Shown: positions 22,271 through 41,566 of the stretch, piece by piece | How positions within the stretch are numbered: position 1 is the first letter of the stretch | How the letters are laid out: each line of letters begins with the position of its first letter | NCBI RefSeq assembly: GCF_011299575.1 | Contig: NZ_CP049863.1 | Coordinates: forward strand, 2,294,001 to 2,358,000 | Origin: Leucobacter viscericola | GTDB lineage: Bacteria; Actinomycetota; Actinomycetes; Actinomycetales; Microbacteriaceae | Direction: 5' to 3' | Length of the DNA: 64,000 bases | Notes under the pieces: model-generated | What the model saw: only the letters and a program-made list of their open reading frames with translations | Databases searched by the model: none | Told to the model about the DNA's origin: nothing | Position numbers and translations under genes: made by a program

Positions 22271-22330
22271 AAGCCATGAACTCGTCGAGAGGCCATCACG
22301 TTCGATGGCCTCTCGACGAGTTCATGGCTT
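22271..22330. repeat. Palindromic repeat family A, copy 1 (perfect 27-bp arms)
   Basis: Arms 22271-22297 and 22304-22330 are perfectly complementary around ACGTTC. The core is CTCGTCGAGAGGCCAT. It lies between two convergent genes. Related copies are at 34666-34709 and 41507-41566; similarity extends into the flanks (GACAAGC before, CTCGGCAGGGG-like after). Confidence 0.9.
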
Positions 22331-22377
22331 CTCGGCAGGGGTGGCGCCGCGCAGGGGCGCCGCGCAAGCGGCGCGAG

Positions 22378-22794
22378 CTACTTCGCGGGCATGTCCTTGA
22401 TCAGGTTTGAGATGCGCACTGTGCAGCAGCGGCGGCCCTGGTCGTCGGTGACGACGATCTCGTGCACCGCAAGCGTGCGGCCCAGGTGGATCGGCGTGCA
22501 CACACCGGTCACGTAGCCCTCGGTGGCGGAGCGCGTGTGGGTCGCGTTGATGTCGACTCCCACAGCCAGGCGCCCCGGGCCGGCATGCAGGTTGGCCGCC
22601 ATCGAACCGAGCGATTCACCGAGCACCACGTAGGCGCCGCCGTGCAAGAACCCGACGGTCTGGCGGTTGCCCTTCACCGGCATGCGCGCCACGGTGCGCT
22701 CAACGGTGTACTCGAGAAACTCGATCCCCATCGCGTCTGCGAGCTCACCCGAGCCGTTCTCTGCAACCCAATTCTTGTCATTCACGGGGATCAT
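22378..22794 (-). CDS. Hotdog-fold acyl-CoA thioesterase, YdiI/MenI-like
   Basis: 138 residues, single hotdog domain. The active-site helix reads FLHGGAYVVLGESLGSMAAN, with the His and the Glu (GESLGS) of the YdiI/EntH/MenI branch. GRLAVGVDINATHTR and DDQGRRCCTVRIS also match that branch closely. Members hydrolyse 1,4-dihydroxy-2-naphthoyl-CoA in menaquinone synthesis or other aryl-CoA thioesters. Its closeness to the paa genes suggests an aryl-CoA housekeeping role, but a 214-bp repeat-bearing spacer separates it from paaG. It is distinct from paaI at 27868. The Shine-Dalgarno (AAGGA) lies rather close to the ATG. Confidence 0.85.
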   Translation of the reverse strand: MIPVNDKNWVAENGSGELADAMGIEFLEYTVERTVARMPVKGNRQTVGFLHGGAYVVLGESLGSMAANLHAGPGRLAVGVDINATHTRSATEGYVTGVCTPIHLGRTLAVHEIVVTDDQGRRCCTVRISNLIKDMPAK

Positions 22795-22866
22795 TCTTCC
22801 TTGTTGGGGGTGGGAACACCACCGGGCGAAGTTTTGGCGCTTTGGGTGGGGCTTGGCTCAACCGAA

Positions 22867-22936
22867 GGCAAGGAAAGTGGCGAGTGGCAAGGAAAGCGGC
22901 ATGTGAGGATCCTTGCCACTCGCCAGTAACCTTGCC
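22867..22936. repeat. Palindromic repeat family C, copy 1
   Basis: Arms 22867-22893 and 22910-22936 pair at 24 of 27 positions (inner 16 bp perfect: TGGCGAGTGGCAAGGA). The 16-nt loop AAGCGGCATGTGAGGA matches the loop of copy 2 at 41707-41722 in the pattern AA-N-C-N2-C-N2-GTGA-N-GA. It lies between the thioesterase and paaG genes. Confidence 0.85.
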
Positions 22937-23008
22937 GCTGGTGGCGGATGGTGGGTGGCCGCCGGTCACTGATCGGTGGTCGGCGACCAGCTGGCCGCTG
23001 GTTCGGGA

Positions 23009-23794
23009 TCAGGCACCGCCCGAATGCCCACCGCCAAACACCGGCTTCCGCTTCTCCTGGAACGCCGCAAAACCCTCCCGGTAGTCGTCGGTGTCGCAGA
23101 GCGCGGCCTGCGCCCGGTTCTCCTCAGACATTGAGTCCCACAGGCCGACGCGGCGATCCCGCAGCTCGGCCACCAAGGCTTTCGACGCCAAGAACGCCTG
23201 CGTCGCTCCGGCGGCGGCCCGCGAAGCCGCGGCCCGGGTCTCCGACAGCACCTCATCATCGGCAAAGGACCGCGAGAACAGCCCCGCAGCCACGGCCTCG
23301 GCGCCGCTCATCAACCGACCCGTGTAGATCAGATCGAGCGTGCGGTGCGCCCCGAGCCGCTCGACGAACAGCGCGTGCCCACCCGAGTCGAGTGTCGCCC
23401 CAAGGTTCGCAAACGGGCTGCCGATCTTCGCCGAGTCGGCGACGTACACAACGTCGCTCGCGATGAGCAGCCCAAGACCAACACCGAGACATGCGCCGTG
23501 CGCCACCGCGAAGGTGGGTGCGGGGAAGGAACTCATCTGCTTCATCAGCGGCTCGACGAGCCCCTCAAGATAGCCGAGCACATCGTCTTCCCGAGGGTCC
23601 ACCCCAGAGATATCCCGCCCGGCGCAGAACGCACGACCCTCGCCGCGCAGCACCAGCGCGCGCACCCCGGCCTGCTCGGCCTCGGTGTACGCGGCAGCCA
23701 GCTCGCGAAGGTCAGACGGCCCGAGAGAGTTCAGCCGATCCGGCGCGTCAAGAACCACCTCGGCAACGCCGTCGGCAATAGAAAGTTTGATCAT
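23009..23794 (-). CDS. paaG: 1,2-epoxyphenylacetyl-CoA isomerase
   Basis: 261 residues, crotonase fold, same length as E. coli PaaG. It isomerises ring-1,2-epoxyphenylacetyl-CoA to 2-oxepin-2(3H)-ylideneacetyl-CoA. The segment SPFANLGATLDSGGHALF aligns with the PaaG stretch that carries the catalytic aspartate (xPDCGG in E. coli, LDSGG here), while the usual hydratase glutamate pattern PE...GAGG is missing. That separates it from the hydratase paaF at 37858. The C-terminus DDYREGFAAFQEKRKPVF is typical. The ATG at 23794 has GGGGGA upstream; a TTG four codons earlier is less likely. It is the last gene of the paaABCDE-paaG operon, 15 bp after paaE. Confidence 0.86.
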   Translation of the reverse strand: MIKLSIADGVAEVVLDAPDRLNSLGPSDLRELAAAYTEAEQAGVRALVLRGEGRAFCAGRDISGVDPREDDVLGYLEGLVEPLMKQMSSFPAPTFAVAHGACLGVGLGLLIASDVVYVADSAKIGSPFANLGATLDSGGHALFVERLGAHRTLDLIYTGRLMSGAEAVAAGLFSRSFADDEVLSETRAAASRAAAGATQAFLASKALVAELRDRRVGLWDSMSEENRAQAALCDTDDYREGFAAFQEKRKPVFGGGHSGGA

Positions 23795-23809
23795 GTTGTC
23801 CCCCAAAAC

Positions 23810-24940
23810 CTAAGCGTCGTAATCGACAACAACGTGATCCGACTGTGGATGCGACTGGCAGGTGAGTACGTAGCCACGGTCCATCTCTTCGGGCTCGAGG
23901 GCGTAGTTCTCGGTCATCGATACCGAACCTGTAACCACGCGGGCGCGGCAGGTGCCGCACACCCCACCGGCGCAGGCAAACGGCACATCGGCGCGCACAC
24001 GAAGCGCCGCGTTCAAGATCGTCTCGTTGGCGCTCACCGGGCTCTCGACCGTGCCGGAGGTGCCGTCGAGGGTGAAGTCGATCCGCACCGCCTTCTCGCC
24101 CGCCCGCATCTCAACTGGCCGCGCCCGTGTCGGGGCCTCACCCGGCTCACCCGTGCTGAACAGCTCGAAGCGCACGTGCGACGGCTCGACCCCGTGCTCG
24201 GCCAGCAGATCCCGACACAGCTGCACGAGCTCGAACGGTCCGCACAGCACCCACTCGTCGGCCATGCCGACAGGAATCACAGAGGCCAGGATCGTGCGCA
24301 GCCGCTCCTCATCGAGGCGTCCCGACATGATCGGCGCCGAGCGCTGCTCGCGCGACAGCACATGGTGGATCGCGAAGCGCTGCGGAAAGCGATCCTTCAG
24401 ATCGGCGAGCTCTTCGACAAACATCACGTCGAGCGAGGACTTGTTCGTGAACAGCAGGTCGAAGCGGCTCGTGTCGCTCTGCAGCAGTACCTTGTGCGCG
24501 ATCGTGATGATCGGGGTGATGCCCGATCCGGCGGCAATGCCGACGACGTGGCGGCCGTCGAACTCAGCAAGGTTTGAGGTGAACGCTCCCTGCGGGGTCA
24601 TCACCTGCAGGGTGTCGCCAGCCTTGAGGGTGTCGTTGGCCCAGGTCGAGAAGAGCCCGCCCTGGTCGCGCTTGATGGCGACCGAGATGCGACCGTTCGC
24701 TGGCGGTCGGCAGATCGAGTACGAGCGACGAATATCTTCGCCGTCGAGGGTGGTGCGCAGCGCGAGATACTGACCCGCGAGGTAGACGTAGTGCTCGGCG
24801 AGCTCGTCGGGCACCTCAAAGGTGACCTCGACGCTCGTGTCGGTGAGGTGGCGCACCTCTGCGACACGCAGCTCATGGAACGTCGCGCGCTTCGTGGTGC
24901 GTAGCCGGGCGGGCGTCGCACCGAGGTTGATGGCAGCCAT
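23810..24940 (-). CDS. paaE: Phenylacetyl-CoA epoxidase reductase subunit
   Basis: 376 residues. Residues about 20-245 form a ferredoxin-NADP reductase fold, with the FAD motif RRSYSICRPPANG and NAD(P)-site residues GIAAGSGITPI. Residues about 290-376 form a plant-type 2Fe-2S domain: CAGGVCGTCRARV (C-x4-C-x2-C) plus a fourth Cys in YVLTCQSHP. It passes electrons from NADPH to the PaaA di-iron centre. The ATG at 24940 begins MAAINLGATPARLRTT. It follows paaD by 47 bp in the operon. Confidence 0.95.
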   Translation of the reverse strand: MAAINLGATPARLRTTKRATFHELRVAEVRHLTDTSVEVTFEVPDELAEHYVYLAGQYLALRTTLDGEDIRRSYSICRPPANGRISVAIKRDQGGLFSTWANDTLKAGDTLQVMTPQGAFTSNLAEFDGRHVVGIAAGSGITPIITIAHKVLLQSDTSRFDLLFTNKSSLDVMFVEELADLKDRFPQRFAIHHVLSREQRSAPIMSGRLDEERLRTILASVIPVGMADEWVLCGPFELVQLCRDLLAEHGVEPSHVRFELFSTGEPGEAPTRARPVEMRAGEKAVRIDFTLDGTSGTVESPVSANETILNAALRVRADVPFACAGGVCGTCRARVVTGSVSMTENYALEPEEMDRGYVLTCQSHPQSDHVVVDYDA

Positions 24941-24987
24941 GGGAACTCCCTAAGTTTTGGGTGGAACGGGGGTAGCGGGCGGTCCGC

Positions 24988-25566
24988 TCAGTGAACCTTG
25001 AAGTAGTCAAACGGTTCGAGGCAGGCGGTGCACTCGTAGAGCGCCTTGCACGAGGTCGAACCGAAGCGGGCGATCTCGCGCGTCTGCGTCGAGTGGCAGC
25101 GCGGGCACTTCACCGCGAGCGGCACGAGCACAGGACCCTGCCTCGCCGCCGAGCGGAAGTCAGGCGGCGCGATCCCGTAGGCCTCGAGTTTGCGTTTGCC
25201 GTTTTCGCTCATCCAGTCGGTCGACCACGCGGGGGAGAGCGTGGTGGTCACGCTCACCTGCTCGTAGCCGGCGTCGCGCAGTTTTGCCGTGACATCGTCG
25301 CGCATCTGGTCGATAGCTGGGCAGCCCGAGTAGGTCGGCGTGAGCGCAACCTCGACCCCGGTTTCGCTCAGGATCACAGTGCGCAGCACCCCCAAATCCT
25401 CGATGGTCAGCACGGGCACCTCAGGATCCAACACCTGCGCGGCGAGATCCCACACCCGCGCCTCGGCGGGGTCCGTTGGCCTGAGCGAGCTGTCTGGGTG
25501 TGCGGCGTCGTCGGCGTGCGGCGAGTCGACTCCTGGCACCGCGCTGTCGGCGCGCGTGGCGGTCAT
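24988..25566 (-). CDS. paaD: Phenylacetyl-CoA epoxidase subunit PaaD
   Basis: 192 residues. The middle (about 40-125) is a MIP18/DUF59-type domain with DPEVPVLTIEDLGVLR and TPTYSGCPAIDQM. The C-terminus has two CxxC pairs, CPRCHST and CTACLEP, likely a zinc or Fe-S site. It is needed for maturation of the epoxidase. The N-terminal 30 residues are Ala/Asp-rich and variable. ATG 25566 lies 2 bp beyond the paaC stop; an overlapping GTG at 25572 (GTGA with the paaC stop) is an equally possible start. Confidence 0.92.
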   Translation of the reverse strand: MTATRADSAVPGVDSPHADDAAHPDSSLRPTDPAEARVWDLAAQVLDPEVPVLTIEDLGVLRTVILSETGVEVALTPTYSGCPAIDQMRDDVTAKLRDAGYEQVSVTTTLSPAWSTDWMSENGKRKLEAYGIAPPDFRSAARQGPVLVPLAVKCPRCHSTQTREIARFGSTSCKALYECTACLEPFDYFKVH

Positions 25567-25568
25567 GG

Positions 25569-26399
25569 TCACCACTTCGCTCCGGGACTGCGCCGCGGCA
25601 GCCACTGCATCTCAGTGAGCAGGTGGCCCAGCTGTGTGCTGTGAATGCCGGATCGGCCGCGCGCGTAGGCGGGCTTCACCTCGGGTACTTCGATCGCGGC
25701 CTCGGCGAACACTGCCGCGACGGTCTGGTCAAAGCCAGCGCGCAGAGCGGAGGGCTGGGCAGCGACGCCCGCCAGACGCGACGTCAGCTCGTCGTCGGAG
25801 AAGAGCTCGTCAACGTAGGGCCACAGATCCTGCAGCGACACGAGAATCTTGCCGCGCGACTCCTCGGTGCCGCCTGCGAGGCGCAGGATCCACTGCACCG
25901 CGTGATCCAGGTGGTAGCGCACCTCGCGCTCCGCCTTGCCAGCGATTGCCTGCAATGAGGCGTCGGTGCTGTTGAGCAGGGTCTTGTAGAGCTCTGCCTG
26001 ATACGCAGAGAAGATGAACTGCCTGGCGATCGTGTCGCCGAAGTGCCCGTTGGGCTGCTCCACTAGCCAGCAGTTGAGAAACTCGGGCTCGTCGCGCCAG
26101 AATGCGAGATCGTCTTCGGAGCGTCCGGTCGCGGTACCCGCGTAATGCAGCAGCGCGCGGGCGTGGCCGAGCAGGTCGAGGGTGACGTTCGCGAGCGCCA
26201 TATCTTCTTCGAGCTCGGGGGCCTTCGCGACCCACCAGCCGAGCTGCTGCGAGAGGATCAGCGAGTCGTCGCCGAGCCGCATCGCGTATTCGGCCACGTC
26301 GGCGGTCGCGGTGGCGCCCGAGCCGGGTAGCTCGTCGGCGAGACGAAGCTCGTCGACCGTTACGTCGCCGTGGGCAGTGGTTGTGGTGTCGGTACTCAC
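25569..26399 (-). CDS. paaC: Phenylacetyl-CoA epoxidase structural subunit PaaC
   Basis: 276 residues, ferritin-like fold. Motifs include DDSLILSQQLGWWVAKAPEL near the start, ALANVTLDLLGHARALLHYA in the core, and REVRYHLDHAVQWILRLAGG. It is the catalytically inactive scaffold partner of PaaA in the (PaaAC) epoxidase core that epoxidises the ring of phenylacetyl-CoA. The GTG start overlaps the paaB stop by GTGA, indicating coupled translation. Confidence 0.94.
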   Translation of the reverse strand: MSTDTTTTAHGDVTVDELRLADELPGSGATATADVAEYAMRLGDDSLILSQQLGWWVAKAPELEEDMALANVTLDLLGHARALLHYAGTATGRSEDDLAFWRDEPEFLNCWLVEQPNGHFGDTIARQFIFSAYQAELYKTLLNSTDASLQAIAGKAEREVRYHLDHAVQWILRLAGGTEESRGKILVSLQDLWPYVDELFSDDELTSRLAGVAAQPSALRAGFDQTVAAVFAEAAIEVPEVKPAYARGRSGIHSTQLGHLLTEMQWLPRRSPGAKW

Positions 26400-26701
26400 A
26401 GGTGCTTTACCCCCTCGGCGAGGGTGTAGTACACCGCGTGACGGTAGTTCTTGCCAGCGGGTGACTCAAAGAACACACCCTTCGAATCGGGGTCGCTCGT
26501 GGTGATCGCGGCGGCGGGCACCACCCAGATCGACACGCCCTCGTTGCGGCGCGTGTACAGATCGCGCGCGTTGCGCAGGGCCATCTCCTCGTCGGGGGCG
26601 TGCAGCGATCCCGCGTGCACGTGGCTCAGTCCGCGGTTCGCACGGATGAACACCTCCCACAGCGGCCAGGCTTCGTTACCCTTTTCACCGGGTGTCGACA
26701 T
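26396..26701 (-). CDS. paaB: Phenylacetyl-CoA epoxidase subunit PaaB
   Basis: 101 residues. It begins MSTPGEKGNEAWPLWEVFIR and contains GLSHVHAGSLHAPDEEMALR and YTRRNEGVSIWVVP, all characteristic of PaaB, the small subunit that bridges the PaaAC dimers and aids electron transfer. The ATG at 26701 has a GAGACG Shine-Dalgarno and matches homologues; the frame is open further upstream without conservation. It lies 41 bp after paaA. Confidence 0.94.
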   Translation of the reverse strand: MSTPGEKGNEAWPLWEVFIRANRGLSHVHAGSLHAPDEEMALRNARDLYTRRNEGVSIWVVPAAAITTSDPDSKGVFFESPAGKNYRHAVYYTLAEGVKHL

Positions 26702-26742
26702 CGTCGTCTCCTTTAAGTTTTTGTTGTCAGTTCGGGGCGGGA

Positions 26743-27693
26743 TCACGCCGCGAAACGCTGGCGCTCCCGCTGCTTGCGGGCGTACTCGACCGCTGCCTCG
26801 CGCACCCACGCACCGTTCTCGTGGGCCTCGCGACGGTTGCGCAGGCGCTCGGCGTTGGCCGGTCCGCGGCCGTCGAGTACGGCGTAAAACTCGTCCCAGT
26901 CGAGCTCACCGATGATCCACTTGCCGGACTCTTCGTCGTAGCGCAGATCCTTGTCGGGGCACTCGAGGCCCAGCGCCTCAAACTGTGGCACGCACATACC
27001 AACGAAGCGCTGGCGCAGCTCGTCGTTCGAGAAGCGCTTGATCTTCCACGCCATCGACTGCGCCGAGTTGGGTGAAGCGTCGTCGCTCGGTCCGAACATC
27101 ATCAGCGCTGGCCAGTACCAGCGATTGACCGACTCCTGCGCCATGGCCTTCTGCTCGGGGGTGCCGTGCGAGAGCTCGTAGAGAATCTCGAAGCCCTGCC
27201 GCTGGTGGAACGATTCCTCTTTGCAGATGCGCACCATCGCGCGGCCGTATGGGCCGTACGAAGCGCGGCACAGCGGCACCTGGTTGCAGATCGCGGCGCC
27301 GTCGACCAGCCAGCCGATCGCGCCCATGTCTGCCCAGGTGGGCGTGTGGTAGTTGAAGATTGACGAGTAGCGGGCCTTGCCCTCGATCAGTGCGTCGGTC
27401 ATTTCTTCGCGCGTGATCCCGAATGTCTGTGCCGCGGAGTAGAGGTAGAGCCCGTGCCCCGCCTCGTCTTGCACCTTGGCAATCAGGATCGCCTTGCGCT
27501 TCAGGCTCGGTGCACGCGTGATCCAGTTGGCCTCGGGCTGCATGCCGATAATTTCGGAGTGGCCGTGCTGCGAGATCTGCCGGATCAGGGTCTTGCGATA
27601 CTTCTCGGGCATCCAGTCGCGCGGTTCAATGCGCTGATCCGCCTCGATGAGCGCGTCAAAGCGGGCCTGCTTTTCTTGCTCGGTTGTCGCCAT
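26743..27693 (-). CDS. paaA: Phenylacetyl-CoA epoxidase catalytic subunit PaaA
   Basis: 316 residues, ferritin-like di-iron monooxygenase. The iron ligands are seen in [16 protein letters not shown] (E-x2-H) and [17 protein letters not shown] (E-x2/3-H). It inserts one oxygen atom into the aromatic ring of phenylacetyl-CoA to give the 1,2-epoxide. The ATG at 27693 has AAGGAGG upstream. It is the first gene of paaABCDE-paaG, divergent from paaI across a 174-bp spacer with a PaaR-type box. Confidence 0.97.
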
Positions 27694-27779
27694 CTGCTGC
27701 CTCCTTGCATCAGTTCTTGCGTACGGTGGCTCTCCCGGAGCCGGAAAACTAGTGGTAGAGTCTCGGAGAAGTAATTACT

Positions 27780-27795
27780 TACCGATCATTCAGTT
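27780..27795. promoter_or_regulatory. PaaR-type TetR operator, box 1 (paaA/paaI)
   Basis: TACCGATCATTCAGTT is an imperfect palindrome matching the pattern CCGA-N-C-R-N-TC-N-G shared with boxes at 39869-39884 and 40001-40016. It abuts TAGTAT (27795-27800), a possible -10 for paaI, so binding would block that promoter. Confidence 0.7.
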
Positions 27796-27867
27796 AGTAT
27801 AAACACACTTCGGAGGCATCCGCAAAGAACCGCGGAACCGTCACCCACGAAACGCAACGGAGCGAAG

Positions 27868-28338
27868 ATGAGTTCAACGACGAACCTGACAGAACAAGGC
27901 AGCATCGAGGATCGCATCGAGCTTGATCCCAGTTGGTCTGCAACGGCGATGCTGCGCACCGACACCGCCAAGAAGGCCTTCGGCATCAGGCTCGAAGAGC
28001 TCGAACGCGGTCGCGCGGTGCTCACCATGCAGGTTCGCGACGACATGGTCAACGGCTTCGGCATTACCCACGGCGGCATGGTATTCACGCTCGCCGACAC
28101 CGCGTTCGCCTACGCCTGCAATGAGGGCAGCAACGCCGTCGTCGCCTCCGGGGTCGACATCACCTTCACGCGCGCCAGTCGCTCGGGCGACACCCTCACC
28201 GCAACCGCCGAGCGCCGCTGGCTCTCCGGTCGCAATGGCCTGTACGACATCACGGTCATTGACCAGAACGACCAGGTGATCGCGGAGTTCCGCGGTCGAT
28301 CCTTCGCGACCAACAACCCACTGCCCACGGTGGCTTAA
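27868..28338 (+). CDS. paaI: Phenylacetyl-CoA pathway thioesterase
   Basis: 156 residues, hotdog fold. The active-site helix is NGFGITHGGMVFTLADTAFA (His-Gly-Gly, with Asp in LADTAF), the PaaI pattern. It hydrolyses stalled ring-hydroxylated or epoxidised phenylacetyl-CoA thioesters, sparing CoA. It is the first gene of paaI-paaK-paaR, divergent from paaABCDE-paaG. The ATG at 27868 has CGGAG upstream. Confidence 0.94.
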   Translation: MSSTTNLTEQGSIEDRIELDPSWSATAMLRTDTAKKAFGIRLEELERGRAVLTMQVRDDMVNGFGITHGGMVFTLADTAFAYACNEGSNAVVASGVDITFTRASRSGDTLTATAERRWLSGRNGLYDITVIDQNDQVIAEFRGRSFATNNPLPTVA

Positions 28339-28388
28339 GCCTCCTGCCGCCCCGCGATCCTCACCCCTTCACCGCACAAAGGAACACC

Positions 28389-29693
28389 ATGTCTGAAACC
28401 GCTACCCTCACTGCCGAGCTCGGTCTCCACCCAGAAGAACGCCTCACCCGCGAAGAGCTCGAGGTGCTGCAGCTCGAGCGCCTGCAGTGGACCGTGCGCC
28501 ACGCCTACGAAAACGTGCCCTTCTACAAGGAGAAGTTCGATCGCCACGGCGTGCACCCCGACGACATTCGCACACTCGCCGACATTGAGCGCCTGCCGTT
28601 CACCACCAAAGACGACCTGCGCCAGAACTACCCGTTCGGCCTGTTTGCGGTGCCGATGGATCAGGTGCGGCGCATCCACGCTTCCTCGGGCACGACCGGA
28701 CGCCTCACGGTGGTGGGCTACACCGACCAGGATCTCGAGAACTGGGCCGACCTGATCGCGCGCTCGCTGTATGCCGCGGGTGTGCGCCCCGGTTGGATGG
28801 TGCACAACGCCTACGGCTACGGCCTGTTTACGGGTGGACTCGGGGCCCACGCGGGCATCGAGCGGCTCGGCTGCACCGTGGTGCCAATGTCTGGAGGGCA
28901 GACCGAGAAGCAGGTGCAGCTGATCCACGACTTCCGTCCCGACGCAATCATGTGCACGCCGAGCTATCTGCTCACCATTGCCGACGCGTTCGAAAAGGCG
29001 GGGTTGGATCCGCGCGCCTCCAGCCTCAAGGTCGCGATCTGCGGCGCGGAGCCGTGGACCGAAAGCATGCGCAGGGAGCTTGAGGATCGGCTCGACATCA
29101 AGGCCGTCGACATTTACGGCCTGTCAGAGATGATGGGCCCGGGCGTCGGCAACGAGTGCGTTGAGACGCAGGATGGCCCGCACATCTGGGAAGATCACTT
29201 TTTGCCCGAGATCATCGACGAGGACTTGCGGCAGGTTGCCGACGGCGAACAGGGTGAGCTCGTGTTCACGACGCTCACTAAAGAGGCGTTCCCGATGATC
29301 CGCTACCGCACCCGCGACCTGACCTCGCTGCACCCGGGTTCTGCCCGGCCTGCGCACCGCCGCATCGCGAAGATCACGGGCCGCAATGACGACATGATCA
29401 TCTTGCGCGGGGTCAACCTCTTCCCGACGCAGATCGAGGAGATCGCGTGCGAGATCGAGCACCTGACGAGCCACTTCATCTTGGAATTGACGAAACGCGG
29501 CACCATGGACCACCTCACGATGAAGATCGAGCCGGATCCTGCCGCGACCGCTTCTGAGGCGGAGGCCGCGCTGAAGTTCATGCAGAAGCGCGTGAAGGAT
29601 CGTGCCGGAACCACCATTGGGGCCGAGCTTGTCGCTGTGGGATCGCTGCCGAGGTCGGAGGGAAAGCTCAAGCGGCTGTACGATCTTCGGTAG
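28389..29693 (+). CDS. paaK: Phenylacetate-CoA ligase
   Basis: 434 residues, the family length. ANL-type AMP-forming ligase: RRIHASSGTTGRLTVVGYT (P-loop-like), VDIYGLSEMMGPGVGNEC, and TKEAFPMIRYRTRDLTSL with the hinge region, then the C-terminal lid ending EGKLKRLYDLR. It activates phenylacetate to phenylacetyl-CoA, the first committed step. AAAGGA precedes the ATG; it follows paaI by 50 bp. Confidence 0.97.
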   Translation: MSETATLTAELGLHPEERLTREELEVLQLERLQWTVRHAYENVPFYKEKFDRHGVHPDDIRTLADIERLPFTTKDDLRQNYPFGLFAVPMDQVRRIHASSGTTGRLTVVGYTDQDLENWADLIARSLYAAGVRPGWMVHNAYGYGLFTGGLGAHAGIERLGCTVVPMSGGQTEKQVQLIHDFRPDAIMCTPSYLLTIADAFEKAGLDPRASSLKVAICGAEPWTESMRRELEDRLDIKAVDIYGLSEMMGPGVGNECVETQDGPHIWEDHFLPEIIDEDLRQVADGEQGELVFTTLTKEAFPMIRYRTRDLTSLHPGSARPAHRRIAKITGRNDDMIILRGVNLFPTQIEEIACEIEHLTSHFILELTKRGTMDHLTMKIEPDPAATASEAEAALKFMQKRVKDRAGTTIGAELVAVGSLPRSEGKLKRLYDLR

Positions 29694-29701
29694 GCGCGCT
29701 C

Positions 29702-29762: not shown

Positions 29763-29782
29763 TAATGAGGGGGAGGTTACGC

Positions 29783-30406: not shown

Positions 30407-30481
30407 GGCGCTTGCGCGCCTGTTCCCAAGAGCTCCGGGGTGCCCCTGACTCCCTGACTCCCCTTGACGTCAGCCGCCCCT

Positions 30482-30537
30482 GCGGTGAACGCATCTCAAC
30501 ATTATGCCCATCCAAAATGTTGAGATGCGTTCACCGC
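30482..30537. repeat. Perfect 22-bp-arm intergenic palindrome
   Basis: Arms 30482-30503 (GCGGTGAACGCATCTCAACA...) and 30516-30537 pair without mismatch around a 12-nt loop. It lies between paaR and the APC permease gene, which run in the same direction. There is no T tract, and only a single copy in this window. Confidence 0.85.
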
Positions 30538-30638
30538 GTGGGGTGAGCGGGGCGTTAGGCTGCTCGCTAGGCTAGTGCCTTGCGGGCGGCACTGAAGCCG
30601 CCCACTTTTGTCAATGATGATGAGAAAGGGCACCATTC

Positions 30639-33998: not shown

Positions 33999-34541
33999 TT
34001 ATGCCCGAGCCAGGGCGAGAACTCGCGATGTTCGCTGCGTGATCACAACCGAACGCAGCAGCCGGTTCGCGGCGAGAAACAACAGGATCGTGCCGCTCGC
34101 CTGAGCGAGGTGGCCCCCGATCGATGCCTCCCAAAAAGAGAACCCGATACGCGCCGCGATAAGCAACACCCAAATAATGAGGCCCAGTGTGCCATTGCGT
34201 GCCTCGAATTCGGGAGCAGCCCCGCCCTGCTGGTTCTTCTTGCGTGACTGCCACTTGTGAAGCCCCTGCTCGGTAATGGGGCGAAAGTGGGCCACAGCCC
34301 CGATCAGTGCACCGATAGCTGCGCTCGCTACAAGCTCGACGACGAAGAAGGCAATGTCGGTTGTGTTGAATGTGTTGCCCTGGCCTCCAAAGGTGATGAG
34401 GCCGACCCCGATGACACCCAGGATGACCGGGCCGCGCCAGATCTGGTCGGCGCTGATTGCGGTCCAGCGTGTTTGCCGAACACTGACAAGTGCGACTACG
34501 GCGAGAACAAGAAGAATGCTGGTGAAGTTGAGTGAGGTCAA
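33999..34541 (-). CDS. Small integral membrane protein of the two-component operon
   Basis: 180 residues with about five or six predicted helices and a charged loop QSRKKNQQGGAAPEFEARNG near the middle. It resembles CcdC/DUF1453-type membrane proteins loosely; no catalytic motif is seen. Start: TTG at 34541 is preferred because CAGGAG lies 6 nt upstream and the protein then begins directly with a helix; the frame is open to 34604. It is the first gene of the operon with the kinase and regulator, so it may be a signalling accessory like the membrane partners of other HisKA_3 kinases (inference). Confidence 0.72.
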   Translation of the reverse strand: MTSLNFTSILLVLAVVALVSVRQTRWTAISADQIWRGPVILGVIGVGLITFGGQGNTFNTTDIAFFVVELVASAAIGALIGAVAHFRPITEQGLHKWQSRKKNQQGGAAPEFEARNGTLGLIIWVLLIAARIGFSFWEASIGGHLAQASGTILLFLAANRLLRSVVITQRTSRVLALARA

Positions 34542-34665
34542 GTGGAGCTCCTGGATCTGATTGATACCAAAAGCTTGCCGTTTGTGCTCGTTCCGAGACA
34601 CCACCCTCGGGTGGAAACGCGGGTGGAGATCGTTCGACGCGCTCCACCCCGGCCGACAAGCTACG

Positions 34666-34709
34666 AACTCGTCGAGAGGCCATGCTAGTTGAGGGCCTCT
34701 CGACGAGTT
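34666..34709. repeat. Palindromic repeat family A, copy 2
   Basis: Perfect 16-bp arms 34666-34681 and 34694-34709 (AACTCGTCGAGAGGCC). The outer parts are degenerate, but the left flank GACAAGCTACG still matches copy 1. It lies in the spacer after paaZ and before the two-component operon. Confidence 0.85.
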
Positions 34710-34765
34710 GATGTGTTGTTGGCGAGGTAAGAGTGAGGGTGAGGGTGAGGGCGCGTGGACGGGGT

Positions 34766-36790
34766 CTAGGGCGTCTTCGACACCAGAGTGAGCACGTCGT
34801 AGGTCGCCACAATCTCGTCGTCCTGGTTCTTGAGCACGGCGTCCCAGTGCACCTCGCCGTAGTCGTCGGTCTCGCGTGGAATGATCTGCTTTGCGGTGAG
34901 CGCGACCCGCACACGATCCCCAGGTGACACGGGGGTGATGAAGCGCAGATTCTCGAGCCCGTAGTTCGCGAGCACGGGACCGGGTTCCGGCGACACAAAC
35001 AGGCCAGCCGCAAACGACAGCAGCAGGTAGCCGTGCGCAACGCGCCCCGGGAAGAAGGGGTTCGCCGCGGCGGCTTCCTCGTCCATGTGGGCGTAGAAGG
35101 TGTCGCCCGTGAACTCGGCGAAGTGTGTGATGTCGTCGAGTGTTACCTCGCGCTCGTCAGACAGTACCTGATCGCCAACGCGCAGCTCCTGCAGCGACTT
35201 GCGGAAGGGATGGCGGTCGTCGCGAGTTGCGGCGCCCGCGTGCCACACTCCCGTGATCGCGGTCAGTGCCTCGGGGCTGCCCTGGATCGCGGTGCGCTGC
35301 ATGTAGTGGAACACACTGCGCACACCACCCAACTCCTCGCTGCCACCCGCGCGACCGGGGCCGCCGTGCACGAGGTTCGGCAGGGGCGAGCCGTGGCCGG
35401 TCGAGCTGCGTGCGTCCGTGCGGTCGAGCACGAGCATGCGCCCGTTGGCCGAGGCAGCGCGCAGGGTGAGCCCGGCAACAAACCCGGGATCGGCCGACGC
35501 CACACTCGTGACGAGGGATCCGCCGCCGCGCACCACCAGATCAGCCGCCTGCTCGGGGGTGTCATAGGTGATGATCGACGACACGGGGCCGAACGCCTCG
35601 GTGTCGTGCACGCGCTCGGCGAAAGGGTCGTCAAAACGTAGCAACATAGGATCGAGAAACGCGGTATCGAGGCCCGCGGTCTGGCCCTCTCCGAGCACAA
35701 TCCGGCCGCCGCCATCAACAAGCTTCTGCACCTGGCGCAGCACCTCGTCGCGCTGTTCGACCGAGGCGAGCGACCCCATGGTGACGCCCTCCTCAGGAGG
35801 ATCACCGACAACCACCTTCGACGCGATGCGATCCCGAACCGCCTCGACCAGCGCGTCAGCGCTCGCCGCGGGCACGATGGCCCGACGGATCGCGGTGCAC
35901 TTCTGGCCTGCCTTCGTGGTCATTTCGGCGACGAGCTGGCGCACGTAGGCGTCGAACTCGGGCGTGCCAGCGACGGCGTCGGGCCCGAGCACGGATGCGT
36001 TGATCGAGTCGGTCTCCGCCCCGAAGATCACGCCACCGGTCTGCACGGCGTCGTGGCGGCGCAGCGCCTCTGCGGTAGAGGCTGAGCCGGTGAACGCGAC
36101 CACGTCACCGAGGCGCGCGTGATCGAACACGTCGCGCACCGATCCCGAAACCAACTGCAGCGCACCGGCGGGCAGCAGACCCGACTCAATCATGATGCGC
36201 ACCATCTGCTCGGCGAGGTAGGCGCCCGGAGTCGCGGGCTTAATGATGGTCGGCATACCGGCGAGGAACGCGGGCCCGAACTTCTCGAGCGCACCCCACA
36301 CCGGAAAGTTAAAGGCATTGATCTGCACGGTGACACCGGGCAGTGTGGTGCGGATGTGGCGGCCGAGGAACGTGCCGTCCTTCGAGAGAGGCTCGACCGG
36401 ACCGTCGAGCTGCACCCTCGCATTGGGCAGTTCGCGGCGACCCTTGCCCGAGTAGGTGAACAGCACACCGATGCCGCCGTCGATGTCGACCCAGGAATCG
36501 CCCTTCGTGGCGCCCGTGTGGGTTGACAGAGCGTAGAGCTCCTTCTTGCGCTCGGTCAGCGCGAGCGCAAGCTGCTTCAAGATCACGGCGCGCTGGTGGA
36601 ACGTGAGGGCGCCGAGGCTCTTCTGCCCGACGGTGCGCGCGTGCTCCATGGCGGCCGCGAGATCCAGACCCTCGCTCGATACGAGCGCGACGGCCTCGCC
36701 GGTGACGGCGTCTTTCACCTCGACACCCGTGACGCCCGCGGCGGGGCTCCACCAGGCATCCTGTACGTAACTCTGTAGTATGCGCGTCAT
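34766..36790 (-). CDS. paaZ: Bifunctional oxepin-CoA hydrolase / semialdehyde dehydrogenase
   Basis: 674 residues. Residues about 1-515 are an aldehyde dehydrogenase domain (VAFTGSASTAEALRR; catalytic Cys in TKAGQKCTAIRRAIVP). Residues about 540-674 are a MaoC-type R-hydratase domain with FTGDTFYAHMDEEAA and FPGRVAHGYLLLSFAAG. It opens the oxepin-CoA ring and oxidises the resulting aldehyde to 3-oxo-5,6-dehydrosuberyl-CoA. ATG 36790 has GAAGGAG upstream; the frame runs open to 36967 only because the repeat spacer lacks stops. It is separated from paaH by a 189-bp spacer of tandem and palindromic repeats, so it may have its own promoter or be read through. Confidence 0.95.
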   Translation of the reverse strand: MTRILQSYVQDAWWSPAAGVTGVEVKDAVTGEAVALVSSEGLDLAAAMEHARTVGQKSLGALTFHQRAVILKQLALALTERKKELYALSTHTGATKGDSWVDIDGGIGVLFTYSGKGRRELPNARVQLDGPVEPLSKDGTFLGRHIRTTLPGVTVQINAFNFPVWGALEKFGPAFLAGMPTIIKPATPGAYLAEQMVRIMIESGLLPAGALQLVSGSVRDVFDHARLGDVVAFTGSASTAEALRRHDAVQTGGVIFGAETDSINASVLGPDAVAGTPEFDAYVRQLVAEMTTKAGQKCTAIRRAIVPAASADALVEAVRDRIASKVVVGDPPEEGVTMGSLASVEQRDEVLRQVQKLVDGGGRIVLGEGQTAGLDTAFLDPMLLRFDDPFAERVHDTEAFGPVSSIITYDTPEQAADLVVRGGGSLVTSVASADPGFVAGLTLRAASANGRMLVLDRTDARSSTGHGSPLPNLVHGGPGRAGGSEELGGVRSVFHYMQRTAIQGSPEALTAITGVWHAGAATRDDRHPFRKSLQELRVGDQVLSDEREVTLDDITHFAEFTGDTFYAHMDEEAAAANPFFPGRVAHGYLLLSFAAGLFVSPEPGPVLANYGLENLRFITPVSPGDRVRVALTAKQIIPRETDDYGEVHWDAVLKNQDDEIVATYDVLTLVSKTP

Positions 36791-36838
36791 TGCGATGACT
36801 CCTTCAAATTGTTGGTCTGTGTGCTGGGGGCTGTTCCG

Positions 36839-36970
36839 CCGAGCTTGCGCCTCGCTGCTGAGCCTGCCCCTCGCCGCCGAGCTTGCGCCTCGCCGCCGAG
36901 CCTGCATTCCAGCGCCGAGCCTGCGGTTAGGAACTGCTGGTTCGATGCTGAAGTGCAGGCTCGGCATCGA
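36839..36970. repeat. 19-bp tandem repeats running into a palindrome (family D, copy 1)
   Basis: Five 19-bp units starting CCGAGC(T/C)TGC occupy 36839-36933. The fourth unit is also the left arm of a palindrome: GCCGAGCCTGCATTCCAGC pairs with GCTGAAGTGCAGGCTCGGC near 36947-36965 at 17 of 19 positions, enclosing GCGGTTAGGAACTGC. A related single element is at 46063-46134. Confidence 0.8.
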
Positions 36971-36979
36971 ACCGGGGAC

Positions 36980-37861
36980 TCAATTCCAGTCGTAAAATCC
37001 CTGGCCGCTCTTGCGGCCGAGCTTGCCTGCCGCGACCATGTCGCGCAGCAACTGCGGCGGCGCAAAGTTCGGGCCGAGGTCGCGCTCAAGCTGCTCGGCG
37101 ATGCCGAGTCGCACGTCGAGTCCCACGATGTCGGTTGTGCGCAGCGGACCCGTCGGGTGGCGGTAGCCGAGCTCCATCGCCAGGTCGATGTCTGCCGCGC
37201 TCGCGACACCCTGCTCGACCATCCGCATCGCCTCGAGCGCGAGCGCGACTCCCAAGCGGCTCGACGCAAACCCCGGGGCATCCTTCACGGTGATCGGTGT
37301 CTTGCCGAGTGCGCGCACCCAGCCGCACGCGATTTCGGGCAGCTCGGGATCCGTGAGTTCACACACCACCACCTCAATCAGCGAGGACGCCGGCACGGGG
37401 TTGAAGAAGTGGAGACCGATGAAGCGCTCGGGCCGATCCAGTGCCTCCGCGAGCTGGGAGAGTGGGATCGACGAGGTGTTCGACGCGATGATCGCGTCAC
37501 CCGGTAGTTGCTGCTCGATGTTGCTGAGCGCCTCGATCTTGAGGTCAAGCGATTCGGGTACGGCCTCGATCACGAGGCGGCACGCGCCAAACGCGGTGAC
37601 ACTCGTGGCGACCGTGAGGTTCTGCTTCAGCAGCGCCGCGTCGGCGTCGAGGCCGCGCGCGATTGAGGCGTCAATGCTCTGCTCAATGCGCTCGCGGGCT
37701 GCGTCGGCCGAGGCGACGTCGCGCTCGACCACCACAACGTAAGCGCCTGAGGTGAGGAAGGCGTGGGCGATCCCGCCGCCCATGCGCCCGCCGCCGAGCA
37801 CACCAACGCGCGAGGGCACGGCTTCTTCAGCGGCTGGGATCGGAAGGGAAGGGTTTGTCAT
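36980..37861 (-). CDS. paaH: 3-hydroxyadipyl-CoA dehydrogenase
   Basis: 293 residues. N-terminal Rossmann fold RVGVLGGGRMGGGIAHAFLT with the NAD motif GxGxxG, then IASNTSSIPLSQLAEAL and GLHFFNPVPASSLIEVV with the catalytic His (family H in HFFNP). The C-terminal dimerisation domain is about 185-285. It oxidises 3-hydroxyadipyl-CoA to 3-oxoadipyl-CoA in lower phenylacetate degradation. Its ATG overlaps the paaF stop by ATGA. Confidence 0.94.
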   Translation of the reverse strand: MTNPSLPIPAAEEAVPSRVGVLGGGRMGGGIAHAFLTSGAYVVVVERDVASADAARERIEQSIDASIARGLDADAALLKQNLTVATSVTAFGACRLVIEAVPESLDLKIEALSNIEQQLPGDAIIASNTSSIPLSQLAEALDRPERFIGLHFFNPVPASSLIEVVVCELTDPELPEIACGWVRALGKTPITVKDAPGFASSRLGVALALEAMRMVEQGVASAADIDLAMELGYRHPTGPLRTTDIVGLDVRLGIAEQLERDLGPNFAPPQLLRDMVAAGKLGRKSGQGFYDWN

Positions 37862-38625
37862 TTCGCCTGCTTTCGCTCAAGAAATTCCGTCATGCGGCGC
37901 ATCTTTTCGGGGCTTTCGAAGAGGATCGCCTGCTCGTCGAGGTCGACCTGCGGGTGGGCCTCGCGCGGTGCGTGGAGCACTCGCTTCGAGGCACGTGTTG
38001 CCGTAGGGTCGAGCTTTGCGATGCGGCCCGCGATCTTTTCTGCTGTCGCCAGGGCTGCTTCACCGTCGTCGTGCAGGTGGGTAATGAGCCCTGCGGCCAG
38101 TGCCTCGGAGGCGTCGAGGATGCGCCCGGCGAGCAGGATTTCGGCCGCGAGTGGCTCGCCAACGAGTTCACGCAGGCGCCAGGTCGCACCGGCAGCGGCG
38201 ATGATGCCGAGGCCCGTTTCGGGGTTACCGATCTTGAGCGTCTGCGTGCCGACCCGAATGTCTGCCGCGTAGGCGAGCTCGGCTCCGCCGCCGAGGGCGT
38301 AGCCGTCGAGCACCGCGATCACGGGCATCGGCAGGGCGTTGATGCGCATGAACGCGCGGGTGTTGATGCCGGCCTTTGCGTCGGCCGCGCGGCGCTCGCG
38401 CAACTGTGCGATATCGGCTCCCGCGGCAAACGTGCCACCCTCGCCGCGCAGCACGAGTGTCTGCGGCACGGCCTCGAGCCGCGCGCACAGCACGTGCAGG
38501 GCATCGATCAGATCCTGGTCGATCGCGTTGCGCTTCTCCGGGCGGTCGAGGGTGGCGAGCACGTGAGTGCCGCGATCCTCGATGCGCAGCGGCTCACGGG
38601 CTGCCGTGTCGCTCGCGCCGCTCAC
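37858..38625 (-). CDS. paaF: 2,3-dehydroadipyl-CoA hydratase
   Basis: 255 residues, equal to E. coli PaaF. Crotonase fold with the oxyanion-hole stretch GEGGTFAAGADIAQL and VLDGYALGGGAELAYAADI, and catalytic Glu in GNPETGLGI. It hydrates 2,3-dehydroadipyl-CoA. The start is GTG 38625, whose GTGA overlaps the thiolase stop; the longer open frame upstream is Cys/Trp-rich and lies inside the thiolase gene. Confidence 0.93.
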   Translation of the reverse strand: MSGASDTAAREPLRIEDRGTHVLATLDRPEKRNAIDQDLIDALHVLCARLEAVPQTLVLRGEGGTFAAGADIAQLRERRAADAKAGINTRAFMRINALPMPVIAVLDGYALGGGAELAYAADIRVGTQTLKIGNPETGLGIIAAAGATWRLRELVGEPLAAEILLAGRILDASEALAAGLITHLHDDGEAALATAEKIAGRIAKLDPTATRASKRVLHAPREAHPQVDLDEQAILFESPEKMRRMTEFLERKQAK

Positions 38626-39827
38626 GACTCGACCCGCTCGATAATCGTCGCCGTGCCCTGACCCACACCAACACACATGGTGGCGAGGCCGTAGCGTGAT
38701 CCCTCGCGCTCCATGCGGCCGAGCAGGGTGACGAGCAGTCGGGATCCCGACGAGCCGAGCGGGTGGCCGAGGGCGATGGCGCCACCGTCGGTGTTGACGA
38801 TCGCGGGATCGAGGCCGAGACGCCTGATCGAGGCGAGTGACTGGCTGGCAAAGGCCTCGTTAATCTCGATCGAGCCGAGGTCCGAGACGCTGAGCCCCGC
38901 GCGTGCGAGAGCCTTTTCGGTCGCGGGCACCGGACCGAGCCCCATGATCTCGGGGGCGAGCGCGGCAGAAACGCTGGTCACGATCCTCGCCCGCGGCTTC
39001 AAGTTGTATTTCTCAACGGCCTCACCGCTTGCAACGAGCAGTGCCGAAGCGCCGTCATTGAGCGAGGAGGCGTTGCCAGCGGTAACCACTGTGCCGCCCG
39101 CGACAACGGGACGCAGGCCCGCGAGCACCTCTGCGGTCGTGCCGGGGCGGGGGCCCTCGTCGGTGTCGACCAGCTGGGTCTTGCCGCGGCCAAGAGACAC
39201 CTCGACGGGCACAATCTCGTCGGCGAAGTGCCCGGCCTCGATGGCGGCGATAGCGCGGCGGTGGCTCTCGACGGCGAAGGCGTCAGCGTCTTCGCGCGAG
39301 ATGTTGTCGACGCGAGCGACCTCTTCCGCGGTCTCAGGCATCGAGAACGTTGCCTTGTCGCGCTTCAAAAACTCGGGGTTGGTAAAGCGCCAGCCGATCG
39401 AGGTGTCGAACTGTGCGCCCGGCTTCGCCCAGGCCTTGCCCGGCTTCTCCTGCACCCAGGGTGCGCGGGTCATTGACTCGACACCACCCGCGAGGATCAG
39501 CTCGGCGTCACCCGCACGAATCGCCTGCGAGGCGTTCGAGACCGCGGTCATGCCCGAGGCGCAAAGGCGGTTGACTGTGTATCCCGGGAGGGTATCGGGT
39601 AGACCCGCGAGCAGCGTGGCCATGCGTGCGACGTTGCGGTTGTCTTCGCCGGCCTGGTTCGCCGCTCCGAAGATCACCTCGTCAAGGGCGCCGGCGGGGA
39701 TCCCGGTCCGCTCCACGAGCGTGCGCAGCACGAGGGCTGCGAGATCGTCTGGCCGAACGCCCGCGAGCGCACCGCCATAACGACCGACGGGCGTACGAAC
39801 ACCATCTACGAGAAATGCCTCGGGCAT
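38622..39827 (-). CDS. paaJ: 3-oxoadipyl-CoA/3-oxo-5,6-dehydrosuberyl-CoA thiolase
   Basis: 401 residues. Thiolase II motifs: YTVNRLCASGMTAVSNASQA with the nucleophile Cys, INEAFASQSLASIRRLGLD, GGAIALGHPLGSSGSRLL with the His, and CVGVGQGTA with the second Cys. It cleaves 3-oxo-5,6-dehydrosuberyl-CoA and 3-oxoadipyl-CoA to acetyl-CoA and succinyl-CoA. First gene of paaJ-paaF-paaH(-paaZ), with GGAGG upstream of the ATG, divergent from an MFS carrier with two PaaR-type boxes between. Confidence 0.95.
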   Translation of the reverse strand: MPEAFLVDGVRTPVGRYGGALAGVRPDDLAALVLRTLVERTGIPAGALDEVIFGAANQAGEDNRNVARMATLLAGLPDTLPGYTVNRLCASGMTAVSNASQAIRAGDAELILAGGVESMTRAPWVQEKPGKAWAKPGAQFDTSIGWRFTNPEFLKRDKATFSMPETAEEVARVDNISREDADAFAVESHRRAIAAIEAGHFADEIVPVEVSLGRGKTQLVDTDEGPRPGTTAEVLAGLRPVVAGGTVVTAGNASSLNDGASALLVASGEAVEKYNLKPRARIVTSVSAALAPEIMGLGPVPATEKALARAGLSVSDLGSIEINEAFASQSLASIRRLGLDPAIVNTDGGAIALGHPLGSSGSRLLVTLLGRMEREGSRYGLATMCVGVGQGTATIIERVES

Positions 39828-39868
39828 AGGCGATAGACCTCCATGTCTGCCGCGTCAGTCGATTTAGT

Positions 39869-39884
39869 GACTGATCGTTCGGTA
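39869..39884. promoter_or_regulatory. PaaR-type TetR operator, box 2 (paaJ)
   Basis: GACTGATCGTTCGGTA; on the minus strand TACCGAACGATCAGTC, closely matching box 1. It lies 42 bp upstream of the paaJ start. Confidence 0.75.
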
Positions 39885-39998
39885 ATTCATCTCAGGATAG
39901 ACGGCTGGGGTGCTCGGTGCAAACACCGGCCGGGTTGGGTGAGGCGCTGCGCATGATCCTGCGCGTGCAATTCCGGTGGATTCGTGTAAGCTTCATTA

Positions 39999-40018
39999 CT
40001 TGCCGAACGTTCGGCAAG
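39999..40018. promoter_or_regulatory. PaaR-type TetR operator, box 3 (MFS carrier), perfect palindrome
   Basis: CTTGCCGAACGTTCGGCAAG is a perfect 20-bp palindrome with the same CCGA-N4-TCGG core as boxes 1 and 2. It lies just downstream of TAAGCT (39987-39992), a possible -10, and 36 bp before the MFS start. Confidence 0.82.
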
Positions 40019-40053
40019 AATCACCAAGCAACCACAAGAACAACGGAGTTCAC

Positions 40054-41394
40054 ATGACTGCTGAAACAATGACGACCGTCGACCGACGAGCGGAACAGCG
40101 CAAGGTGCTCGCGGGAACCGTCGTGGGTACCACGATCGAGTGGTACGACTTCTTTATTTACGCGCAGGCGGCGGGTGCTGTCTTCGCGACGCTCTACTTC
40201 GCCCCCGCGGGTGAGACCGTCGGGCAGATTGTCGCCTGGGCCTCCCTCGGCATCTCCTTCCTCTTCCGCCCGCTCGGTGCGATTGTCGCGGGTCACCTCG
40301 GCGACAAGCTCGGGCGCAAGCGCATGCTTGTGCTCACCCTGATTCTCATGGGCATCTCAACCGCGCTTATCGGTGTGCTCCCCACGTATGCCCAGATCGG
40401 GATCGCCGCACCCGTGCTGCTGATCCTGCTTCGCGTGATGCAGGGCTTCTCTGCCGGTGGCGAGTGGGGTGGTGCCGCGCTGATGTCTGTCGAGCACGCT
40501 CCCACGAACAAGCGTGGATTCTTTGGTGCCTATCCGCAGATCGGTGTGCCGCTTGGGATGATCCTCGCCACCGCCACGATGTGGGTCATCACCACTGTGC
40601 TTAGCGAAGAGCAGTTTCTTGCTTGGGGCTGGCGAATCCCGTTCCTGTTCTCGATCGTGCTGATTCTTGTTGGTTACTTCATTCGCCGTGCGGTCGAAGA
40701 GTCGCCCGTGTTCAAGGAGCTGCAGCAGCGCAAGGGTGAGTCGGCGACTCCGCTCAAGACGCTCTTCGCAAAGCACGCCAAGCAGGTCATTCAAGCAGCA
40801 CTCATCTTCATTGCGAACAACGCGGCCGGTTACCTGCTCATCGCCTTCTTCGCGGCGTACGCGACGCGTCCCGTTGCCGAGGGCGGCCTCGGTCTCGAGC
40901 GCCCACCCGTGCTGCTCGCGACCACCCTCGCCTCGTTCGGTTGGCTCGGGTTCACGCTCTACGGTGGCATCCTCTCGGACCGCATCGGGCGCGTGCGCAC
41001 CTTCCAGATCGGCTACGTGCTGCTCGGGATCTGGGCCATCCCGATGTGGTTCCTGATCGACACAGGCGACATCTTCATGTACTTCCTCGCGCTGTTCCTG
41101 ATGACGGTCGGGCTGGGTCTCTCGTACGGACCGCAGGCGGCACTGTACTCGGAGATGTTCCCCGCTGACGTGCGCTACTCGGGTGTCTCGATCGGCTACG
41201 CGATCGGTGCGATCTTTGGCGGGGCCTTTGCGCCGATGATCGCAGACCTCGTGTTCAAGTCGACGGGCCAGTCGTGGACCATTGGCCTCTACATTCTCGG
41301 CGTCACGATCATCTCGCTGGTTGCGGTGTCGTTCGTGAAGGATCCGAAGGGTGTGGCGCTCAACACGCGGTCCAATGAGGTTGTGCCGCAGTAG
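40054..41394 (+). CDS. MFS transporter, metabolite:H+ symporter (MHS/ProP-shikimate) branch
   Basis: 446 residues, 12 helices. It starts with VVGTTIEWYDFFIYAQAAGA, the MHS family signature, followed by GAIVAGHLGDKLGRKRML (MFS motif A) and GFSAGGEWGGAALMSVEHAP. Members import organic acids with protons. Because it is divergent from paaJ and has its own PaaR-type palindrome, phenylacetate or a precursor is the likely substrate (inference). ATG 40054 has CGGAG upstream; the open frame back to 39976 crosses the operator. Confidence 0.9.
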   Translation: MTAETMTTVDRRAEQRKVLAGTVVGTTIEWYDFFIYAQAAGAVFATLYFAPAGETVGQIVAWASLGISFLFRPLGAIVAGHLGDKLGRKRMLVLTLILMGISTALIGVLPTYAQIGIAAPVLLILLRVMQGFSAGGEWGGAALMSVEHAPTNKRGFFGAYPQIGVPLGMILATATMWVITTVLSEEQFLAWGWRIPFLFSIVLILVGYFIRRAVEESPVFKELQQRKGESATPLKTLFAKHAKQVIQAALIFIANNAAGYLLIAFFAAYATRPVAEGGLGLERPPVLLATTLASFGWLGFTLYGGILSDRIGRVRTFQIGYVLLGIWAIPMWFLIDTGDIFMYFLALFLMTVGLGLSYGPQAALYSEMFPADVRYSGVSIGYAIGAIFGGAFAPMIADLVFKSTGQSWTIGLYILGVTIISLVAVSFVKDPKGVALNTRSNEVVPQ

Positions 41395-41506
41395 GGGTTG
41401 GGATCCTTCGCTACTGCTGCCCTGGGGTCCCTGGCGTCCCCGGGCGCCGGGCCCCGCGCCTTGCGCCGCCCCTCCACGCCGACCCCTCCGCGCCATCCCC
41501 GTCGAA

Positions 41507-41566
41507 AAGCTATGGACTCGTCGAGAGGCCATGAATTGGGATGGCCTCTCGACGAGACCATGGCTT
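41507..41566. repeat. Palindromic repeat family A, copy 3
   Basis: Arms 41507-41532 and 41541-41566 pair at 24 of 26 positions around GAATTGGG. The core CTCGTCGAGAGGCCAT is identical to copy 1, and the right flank (CTTCTCAGCGAGGGG) also resembles that of copy 1. Confidence 0.88.

Follow-up and report, generated by a model that had tools for sequence, protein, structure and literature searches.

The family A palindromes of a 64,000-nucleotide stretch of the Leucobacter viscericola chromosome (NZ_CP049863.1, positions 2,294,001 to 2,358,000; hereinafter the window) are probably dispersed elements of the repetitive extragenic palindrome (REP) kind, whose cognate is an AbiEi-Vsr protein and not a REP-associated tyrosine transposase (RAYT); this reading includes the binding of the palindromes by the protein and their copying to new places. 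Dispersed palindromes are common in bacteria, and RAYTs are, to our knowledge, the sole partner protein known for them. Throughout the text, G000 is the source genome, while G- and L-numbers label the other genomes and the loci that were compared.

Three copies had been described in the initial annotation, and all of them were found at their positions with the arms and loops attributed to them: 22271-22330 (perfect arms of 27 bp, loop ACGTTC), 34666-34709 (perfect arms of 16 bp, loop of 12 nt), and 41507-41566 (24 of 26 arm positions paired, loop GAATTGGG). In the window, the core of the family is matched eight times with at most three mismatches, where 1.28 matches would be expected, and none of 100 shuffles reaches this number; across G000, 37 matches with at most two mismatches were retrieved, against six for a reversed-pattern control. 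A covariance model (R1), built from 17 copies, disclosed 19 family A elements at E < 1e-5 on the two strands of G000, plus one further weak place (E about 0.1). Both the alignment (A1) and the model omit L018, the copy carrying an 18-nt gap, as well as L071, which was detected afterwards. Each element consists of four 16-bp half-sites arranged as > > < <, two per arm, with a spacing of 19 bp, around a central gap of variable sequence that is 8 nt long in 18 of the 19 copies and 18 nt long in the other one. In the three window copies, the model span exceeds the limits originally given by 13-21 bp per side:

22258..22343 (G000:2316258-2316343), no strand assigned: family A element 1, four half-sites that recur with a 19-bp period around the loop ACGTTC, in a gap between two convergent genes, E 1.1e-26.
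34645..34730 (G000:2328645-2328730), no strand assigned: family A element 2, one mismatch in the inner pair and degenerate outer half-sites, between tandem (- -) genes, E 1.4e-17.
41494..41579 (G000:2335494-2335579), no strand assigned: family A element 3, with four half-sites around the loop GAATTGGG, in a gap between two convergent genes, E 1.0e-24.

Two of the 19 copies flank a gene located outside the window on the same chromosome (G000:668264-669295, hereinafter the A gene); they are separated from it by 55 bp on the upstream side and by 13 bp on the downstream side, are in direct orientation, and have a common loop, and these distances leave no space for a toxin gene inside the unit. In the product of this gene, a DNA-binding domain of the AbiEi kind is joined to a domain resembling those of very-short-patch-repair (Vsr) and homing endonucleases. 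In the fold comparison, residues 11-209 resemble AbiEi/Rv2827c, winged helix included, and residues 213-326 adopt a Vsr-like fold, also resembling I-Bth0305I; the PADLOC defence models match the AbiEi part only, and a sequence search of the PDB gave three matches at E about 1, none of them credible. Genes of this type are annotated in their source records either as "AbiEi family antitoxin domain-containing protein" or as "very-short-patch-repair endonuclease". Six nuclease-motif residues (E, D, ExDGxxK) are intact in 85 of 90 homologous proteins, which suggests that the nuclease is functional; the absence of stops from the 90 reading frames is no test of this, since it follows from the procedure with which they were cut.

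G000 encodes three homologues, and each of them is bordered on both sides by 19-bp arrays with a sequence particular to that homologue. When the solo family A copies (i.e., excluding the two that flank the gene) were compared with the flanks of the 90 homologues, 16 of 17 scored best with those of the A gene, with values of 23 to 50 against 13.5 to 20.5 for the next-best gene; the only exception is the divergent copy L018, which scored 17.0 with the A gene and 17.5 with a gene of G009. As for the window copies, the scores with the A gene flanks and with the next gene are, respectively, 41.5 and 15.0 for element 1, 31.0 and 14.0 for element 2, and 33.0 and 16.0 for element 3. The same holds for a second family, whose cognate is the paralogue at G000:866999-867934 (the C gene) and which is represented in the window by two elements:

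36890..36970, no strand assigned: family C element, GCCGAGCCTGC, 19-bp period, scoring 30.5 with the flanks of the C gene of G000 and 37.5 with those of its G009 relative, next 13.5.
46062..46115, no strand assigned: family C element, weaker copy, scores of 18.5 and 22.0, next 13.5.

Each of the four family C elements tested was assigned to the C gene or to its relative in G009, with scores of 18.5-37.5, no other gene exceeding 13.5 and shuffled queries reaching 15.0 at most. At the sequence level, gene and repeats are thus paired, and each of the three paralogues of G000 has its own repeat sequence.

The pairing extends to the rest of the genus. Homologues were retrieved from 45 of 54 Leucobacter genomes, for a total of 98 matches, eight of which were left out. 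In G024 and G035, these are second pieces of genes already counted; G004 accounts for two pieces, G013 and G031 for short ones, and G069 for both of its matches, one of which is nearly full length. Two of the remaining 90 genes were dropped from the flank test on account of their short flanks. In 56 of the other 88, the upstream and downstream flanks match each other (score of at least 20). The same is true of only 5 out of 264 flank pairs that had been mismatched, and of 3 out of 125 control open reading frames, which are stretches of 290-420 aa from stop to stop in whichever frame. Counted by clusters at 60% protein identity, the matches are 45 of 68, and at least one such gene occurs in 31 of 42 genomes. 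The best lag is 19 in 56 of 176 homologue flanks and in 1 of 250 control flanks, and it is 18 in 25 of 176 and 6 of 250, respectively; among 18 clear cases, 14 have their matching flanking palindromes in direct orientation. Dispersed elements were also compared in seven other genomes, and 29 of the 33 found their best match in a homologue of their own genome (1.5 expected with 90 flanks), with one tie and two margins of 2 or less among the 29. This test covers A-like families only, since the model detects only families resembling A; it excludes the gene-flanking loci L054, L064, and L086, loci from other genera or resembling chance matches (L057, L059, and L060), and R1 matches for which no DNA had been retrieved. 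Most of the model matches in G009 and G033 are longer by 10.

Repeat and protein also appear to change together. Flank sequence is common to all 22 pairs of proteins at least 60% identical from different genomes, although neighbouring DNA that is shared accounts for part of this agreement, and to 18 of 250 sampled pairs below 45% identity. Conservation is lowest in the winged helix (mean pairwise identity of 0.29) and highest in the Vsr-like domain (0.45), and the same order is observed among protein pairs above 60% identity.

A RAYT-like transposase linked to the palindromes had been anticipated by the initial annotation, which regarded them as elements of the REP type or as miniature inverted-repeat transposable elements (MITEs), or else as a shared 3'-end module. 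The dispersal of 19 copies, none of them inside a called gene, agrees with the first of these views, but its expected partner was not found and an AbiEi-Vsr gene was found instead: the search for PF01797 (Y1), which as a control was positive in 5 of 14 genomes, gave no match in G000, and the RAYT was rejected as a partner. The copies were also said to lie only between genes, twice between convergent ones, and this is the case for the window (two convergent and one tandem). On the whole genome, where genes were called with a simple codon-usage script, three model spans overlap a gene end by 2-29 nt, and 11 of the 19 copies lie between convergent, five between tandem, and three between divergent genes (asparaginase/UvrD, DUF2568/amidohydrolase, and DAG kinase/SerRS); as a background, 464 kb contain 167 gaps with a length of 60 bp or more, namely 22 convergent, 98 tandem, and 47 divergent ones. 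At least one gene 3' end adjoins 16 of the 19 copies. The view of a 3'-end module is weakened by the three divergent cases and by the terminator analysis: 14 terminator-like sites were found between positions 22000 and 41900 of the window, none of them at the three family A elements, for which a terminator role was set aside. The stem followed by a T-run typical of an intrinsic terminator is missing from these three copies (the others were judged by eye), and no Rfam family matched the window at its gathering score.

According to the initial annotation, paired changes in the arms would reveal selection for the fold, and this expectation is borne out in part. Cells altered on both sides of the arms are 24, against 15.5 in shuffles (reached in 0 of 500), and the covariation score of 0.191 (0.143 in shuffles) is above all 500; on the other hand, the pairs with a double-sided change are five, without any excess, five being reached in 467 of 500 shuffles. 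The paired changes are concentrated at the 3-nt linker between the half-sites and at its neighbour. Nor does selection for the fold account for everything, as a 19-bp unit of the same kind also occurs in direct arrays, where no hairpin was found, in Frankia, Streptomyces, Microbacterium (one array of which sits at a contig end), Georgenia, and a metagenome-assembled genome. In Frankia sp. AiPs1 (L175), for instance, five direct repeats of the 19-bp type, again with no hairpin found, follow the stop codon immediately (about 635-740). The existence of these arrays argues that the functional unit is the double-stranded 19-bp repeat rather than an RNA hairpin, and the latter was dropped as a universal feature. 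An exact scan of the named genomes for the tandem motif yielded 16 stretches, including Georgenia, Flexivirga, Microbacterium, Frankia, and Streptomyces, of which at least the Bacterium HR08 match looks like chance. An 18-bp-period pattern, used as a rough wrong-period control, was found in 7 of 398 Microbacteriaceae and not in G000. Flexivirga endophytica (G078; L173, L177, L180, and L185) has 52 raw matches to TGNCNTCTCGNCGA, against four in the control, mostly of the form TGTCCTCTCGGCGA; no fewer than five pairs are in inverted orientation, at a distance of 83-85 bp. Viral contigs gave no exact match to the tandem pattern, no plasmid match covered 80% of the query, and the plasmid-borne homologues of the protein amount to one weak Tsukamurella match.

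How the proposed pair might work can be outlined by analogy with solved AbiEi relatives. AbiEi proteins are autorepressors acting on inverted 23-bp repeats separated by gaps of 3 or 13 bp, and in the experiments described for AbiEi and Rv2827c, neither protein bound the sites of the other (PMC7319586). The gaps of family A (8 and 18) differ by the same 10 bp as those of AbiEi, from which we infer double-stranded binding and autoregulation: the N-terminal winged helix would bind the half-sites as double-stranded DNA and would repress its own promoter. The subsequent steps are the least certain ones. The Vsr/homing-endonuclease-like domain might cut or nick at the sites, the repair that follows might copy the palindromes to new intergenic places and keep the copies alike, and the gene-palindrome unit might be a selfish one that is tolerated where genes end. 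That the copying of the palindromes is stimulated by the nuclease is suggested by the conservation of the nuclease domain together with the dispersal of the copies and their likeness within a genome. Such likeness can be seen at two adjacent sites beside hrpA, common to G000 and Leucobacter coleopterorum, where in an unscored alignment the two copies of one genome seem to resemble each other more than they resemble those of the other genome, as homogenisation would predict. At a third shared site (L004), L. coleopterorum has a short hairpin that is unlike the A gene flanks of that species (9.0). In this species, the model detects six places, three of which are at sites shared with G000, while two have no neighbouring gene in common with the family A loci of G000 examined. 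The hrpA 3' site carries palindromes with a 19-nt period that differ by species in L147 (G028), L136 (G026), and L126 (G029); this site is a possible insertion hot spot.

The system resembles REP/REPIN and RAYT pairs in having intergenic palindromes dispersed in one genome and a cognate gene flanked by matching palindromes, and in that gene and repeats appear to coevolve, as described for RAYTs (PMC2817692). It differs from them in its partner, which is not an HUH tyrosine transposase (TnpA-REP), in the arms made of tandem 18-19-bp half-sites, in the mostly direct orientation of the flanking copies (RAYTs have inverted REPs), in the lack of the GTAG tag, and in the copy number, 19 against the usual figure of over 100 REPs per genome (PMC2817692). 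With the AbiEi antitoxins of the type IV toxin-antitoxin system AbiE and with Rv2827c, it shares the N-terminal winged helix, the fold of the second domain, and paired inverted sites whose gaps differ by 10 bp (PMC7319586); unlike them, it has a fused nuclease-like domain, no room for a toxin gene in the A unit, and sites that are dispersed and present on both sides of the gene. The EDxHD homing endonucleases such as I-Bth0305I have neither the AbiEi recognition domain nor many dispersed sites, a single conserved homing site being their target. The CGTC-tagged REPs, too, are dispersed palindromes for which no dedicated transposase is known from the account in PMC3733652, and CGTC is present in the core of family A; however, CGAC, CGCC, or CGGC is frequent at this place among the relatives of the family, so that this tag is not a feature of the family.

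Other explanations have to be weighed against the one favoured here. The solo palindromes might be scars of palindrome-gene-palindrome insertions from which recombination between direct duplicates deleted the gene, as occurs with solo long terminal repeats. The direct orientation of the flanking palindromes and the common loop of the two A gene flanks fit this scenario, which is nonetheless unlikely: the solo copies carry loops other than the gene-flanking one, no gene remnant (open frame of at least 60 aa, E 1e-3) was found beside the other family A copies at the loci examined, and the insertion of full units at new places would remain to be explained. A similarly low probability is assigned to the idea that the palindromes are binding sites useful to the host, recognised by a domesticated regulator or by a nucleoid or 3'-end factor, and that they mark gene ends, terminate transcripts, or shape the chromosome. 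The excess of convergent locations (11 of 19 against 22 of 167) and the fact that both G000 and L. coleopterorum have kept sites next to hrpA and at L004 speak for it, but three copies lie between divergent genes, the window copies have no terminator-like site, two of the six L. coleopterorum places lack a shared neighbouring gene (three being shared with G000), and the retained nuclease-motif residues would be unexpected in a pure regulator.

A defence system, consisting of a restriction-like nuclease and of palindromes that serve as self-marks or decoys, appears improbable. It would account for the restriction/Vsr-like fold and for a strongly varying winged helix in several paralogues per genome, whereas the PADLOC models hit only the AbiEi part of the protein and nothing indicates a self-recognition role of the sites. 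Least probable are ordinary remnants of insertion sequences (ISs) or MITEs, i.e., the tandem repeats to which the transposase of an IS21/IS481-like element binds. It is true that IS21 ends bear two or more direct repeats (PMC10122671) and that the > > < < layout resembles two abutted ends. Nevertheless, G000 contains a single weak rve match, no tandem 19-bp copies were detected by exact motif search in the 44 rve loci read from a larger list of at least as many matches (only some of these loci yielded their inverted ends), and the partners of the repeats are AbiEi-Vsr genes; within this sample, such transposase ends were set aside as the source.

A broader and more tentative proposal, which we rate as slightly less than an even chance, is that bacteria arrived at the REP/RAYT arrangement a second time, independently and with another protein: AbiEi-Vsr genes with their own 18-19-bp codes would create and maintain families of dispersed palindromes in Leucobacter, and perhaps throughout Actinobacteria, the changing winged helix driving a rapid change of the repeats and the conserved nuclease copying the palindromes. 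This could explain families of dispersed palindromes without a known transposase, and it would offer a testable role for genes annotated as AbiEi antitoxins or very-short-patch-repair endonucleases, dozens of natural protein-repeat pairs for reading the DNA code of the winged helix, and a new case of the persistence of small selfish DNA. Among the papers listed by the literature searches, to which most subscription papers do not belong, none links AbiEi-Vsr proteins to dispersed palindromes; a term search never found DUF559 and AbiEi in the same paper, and the terms Leucobacter and AbiE are absent from the main text of the RepRanger survey (PMC12306157).

Other palindromes were also observed. 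For families B, D, E, F, and G and for the palindrome at 54687, no cognate emerged among the 90 gene flanks, the scores being at about the level of shuffled queries. Family B comprises GGCAAGG palindromes with a 19-nt period and 16-nt loops at 22867-22936 and 41680-41749 of the window, near two family A copies. Family D (GTCAGCCGGT, 18-nt period) occurs in the same genome at L153 5031-5104, L157 7480-7561, and L165 17015-17084. Family E (CTGCGGTGAACGCA...CATAATG, arms of about 24-32, loop of 6), in which a clear tandem period is absent, is located at 30477-30542 of the window and in L154, L163, and L165. Further palindromes of the window lie at 9985-10034 (GGGTCAGTTTCTGG family), 9204-9262 (CTCAACTAGCAATATGGC family), and 54687-54744 (GCGGGTCACTTTTGTGC).

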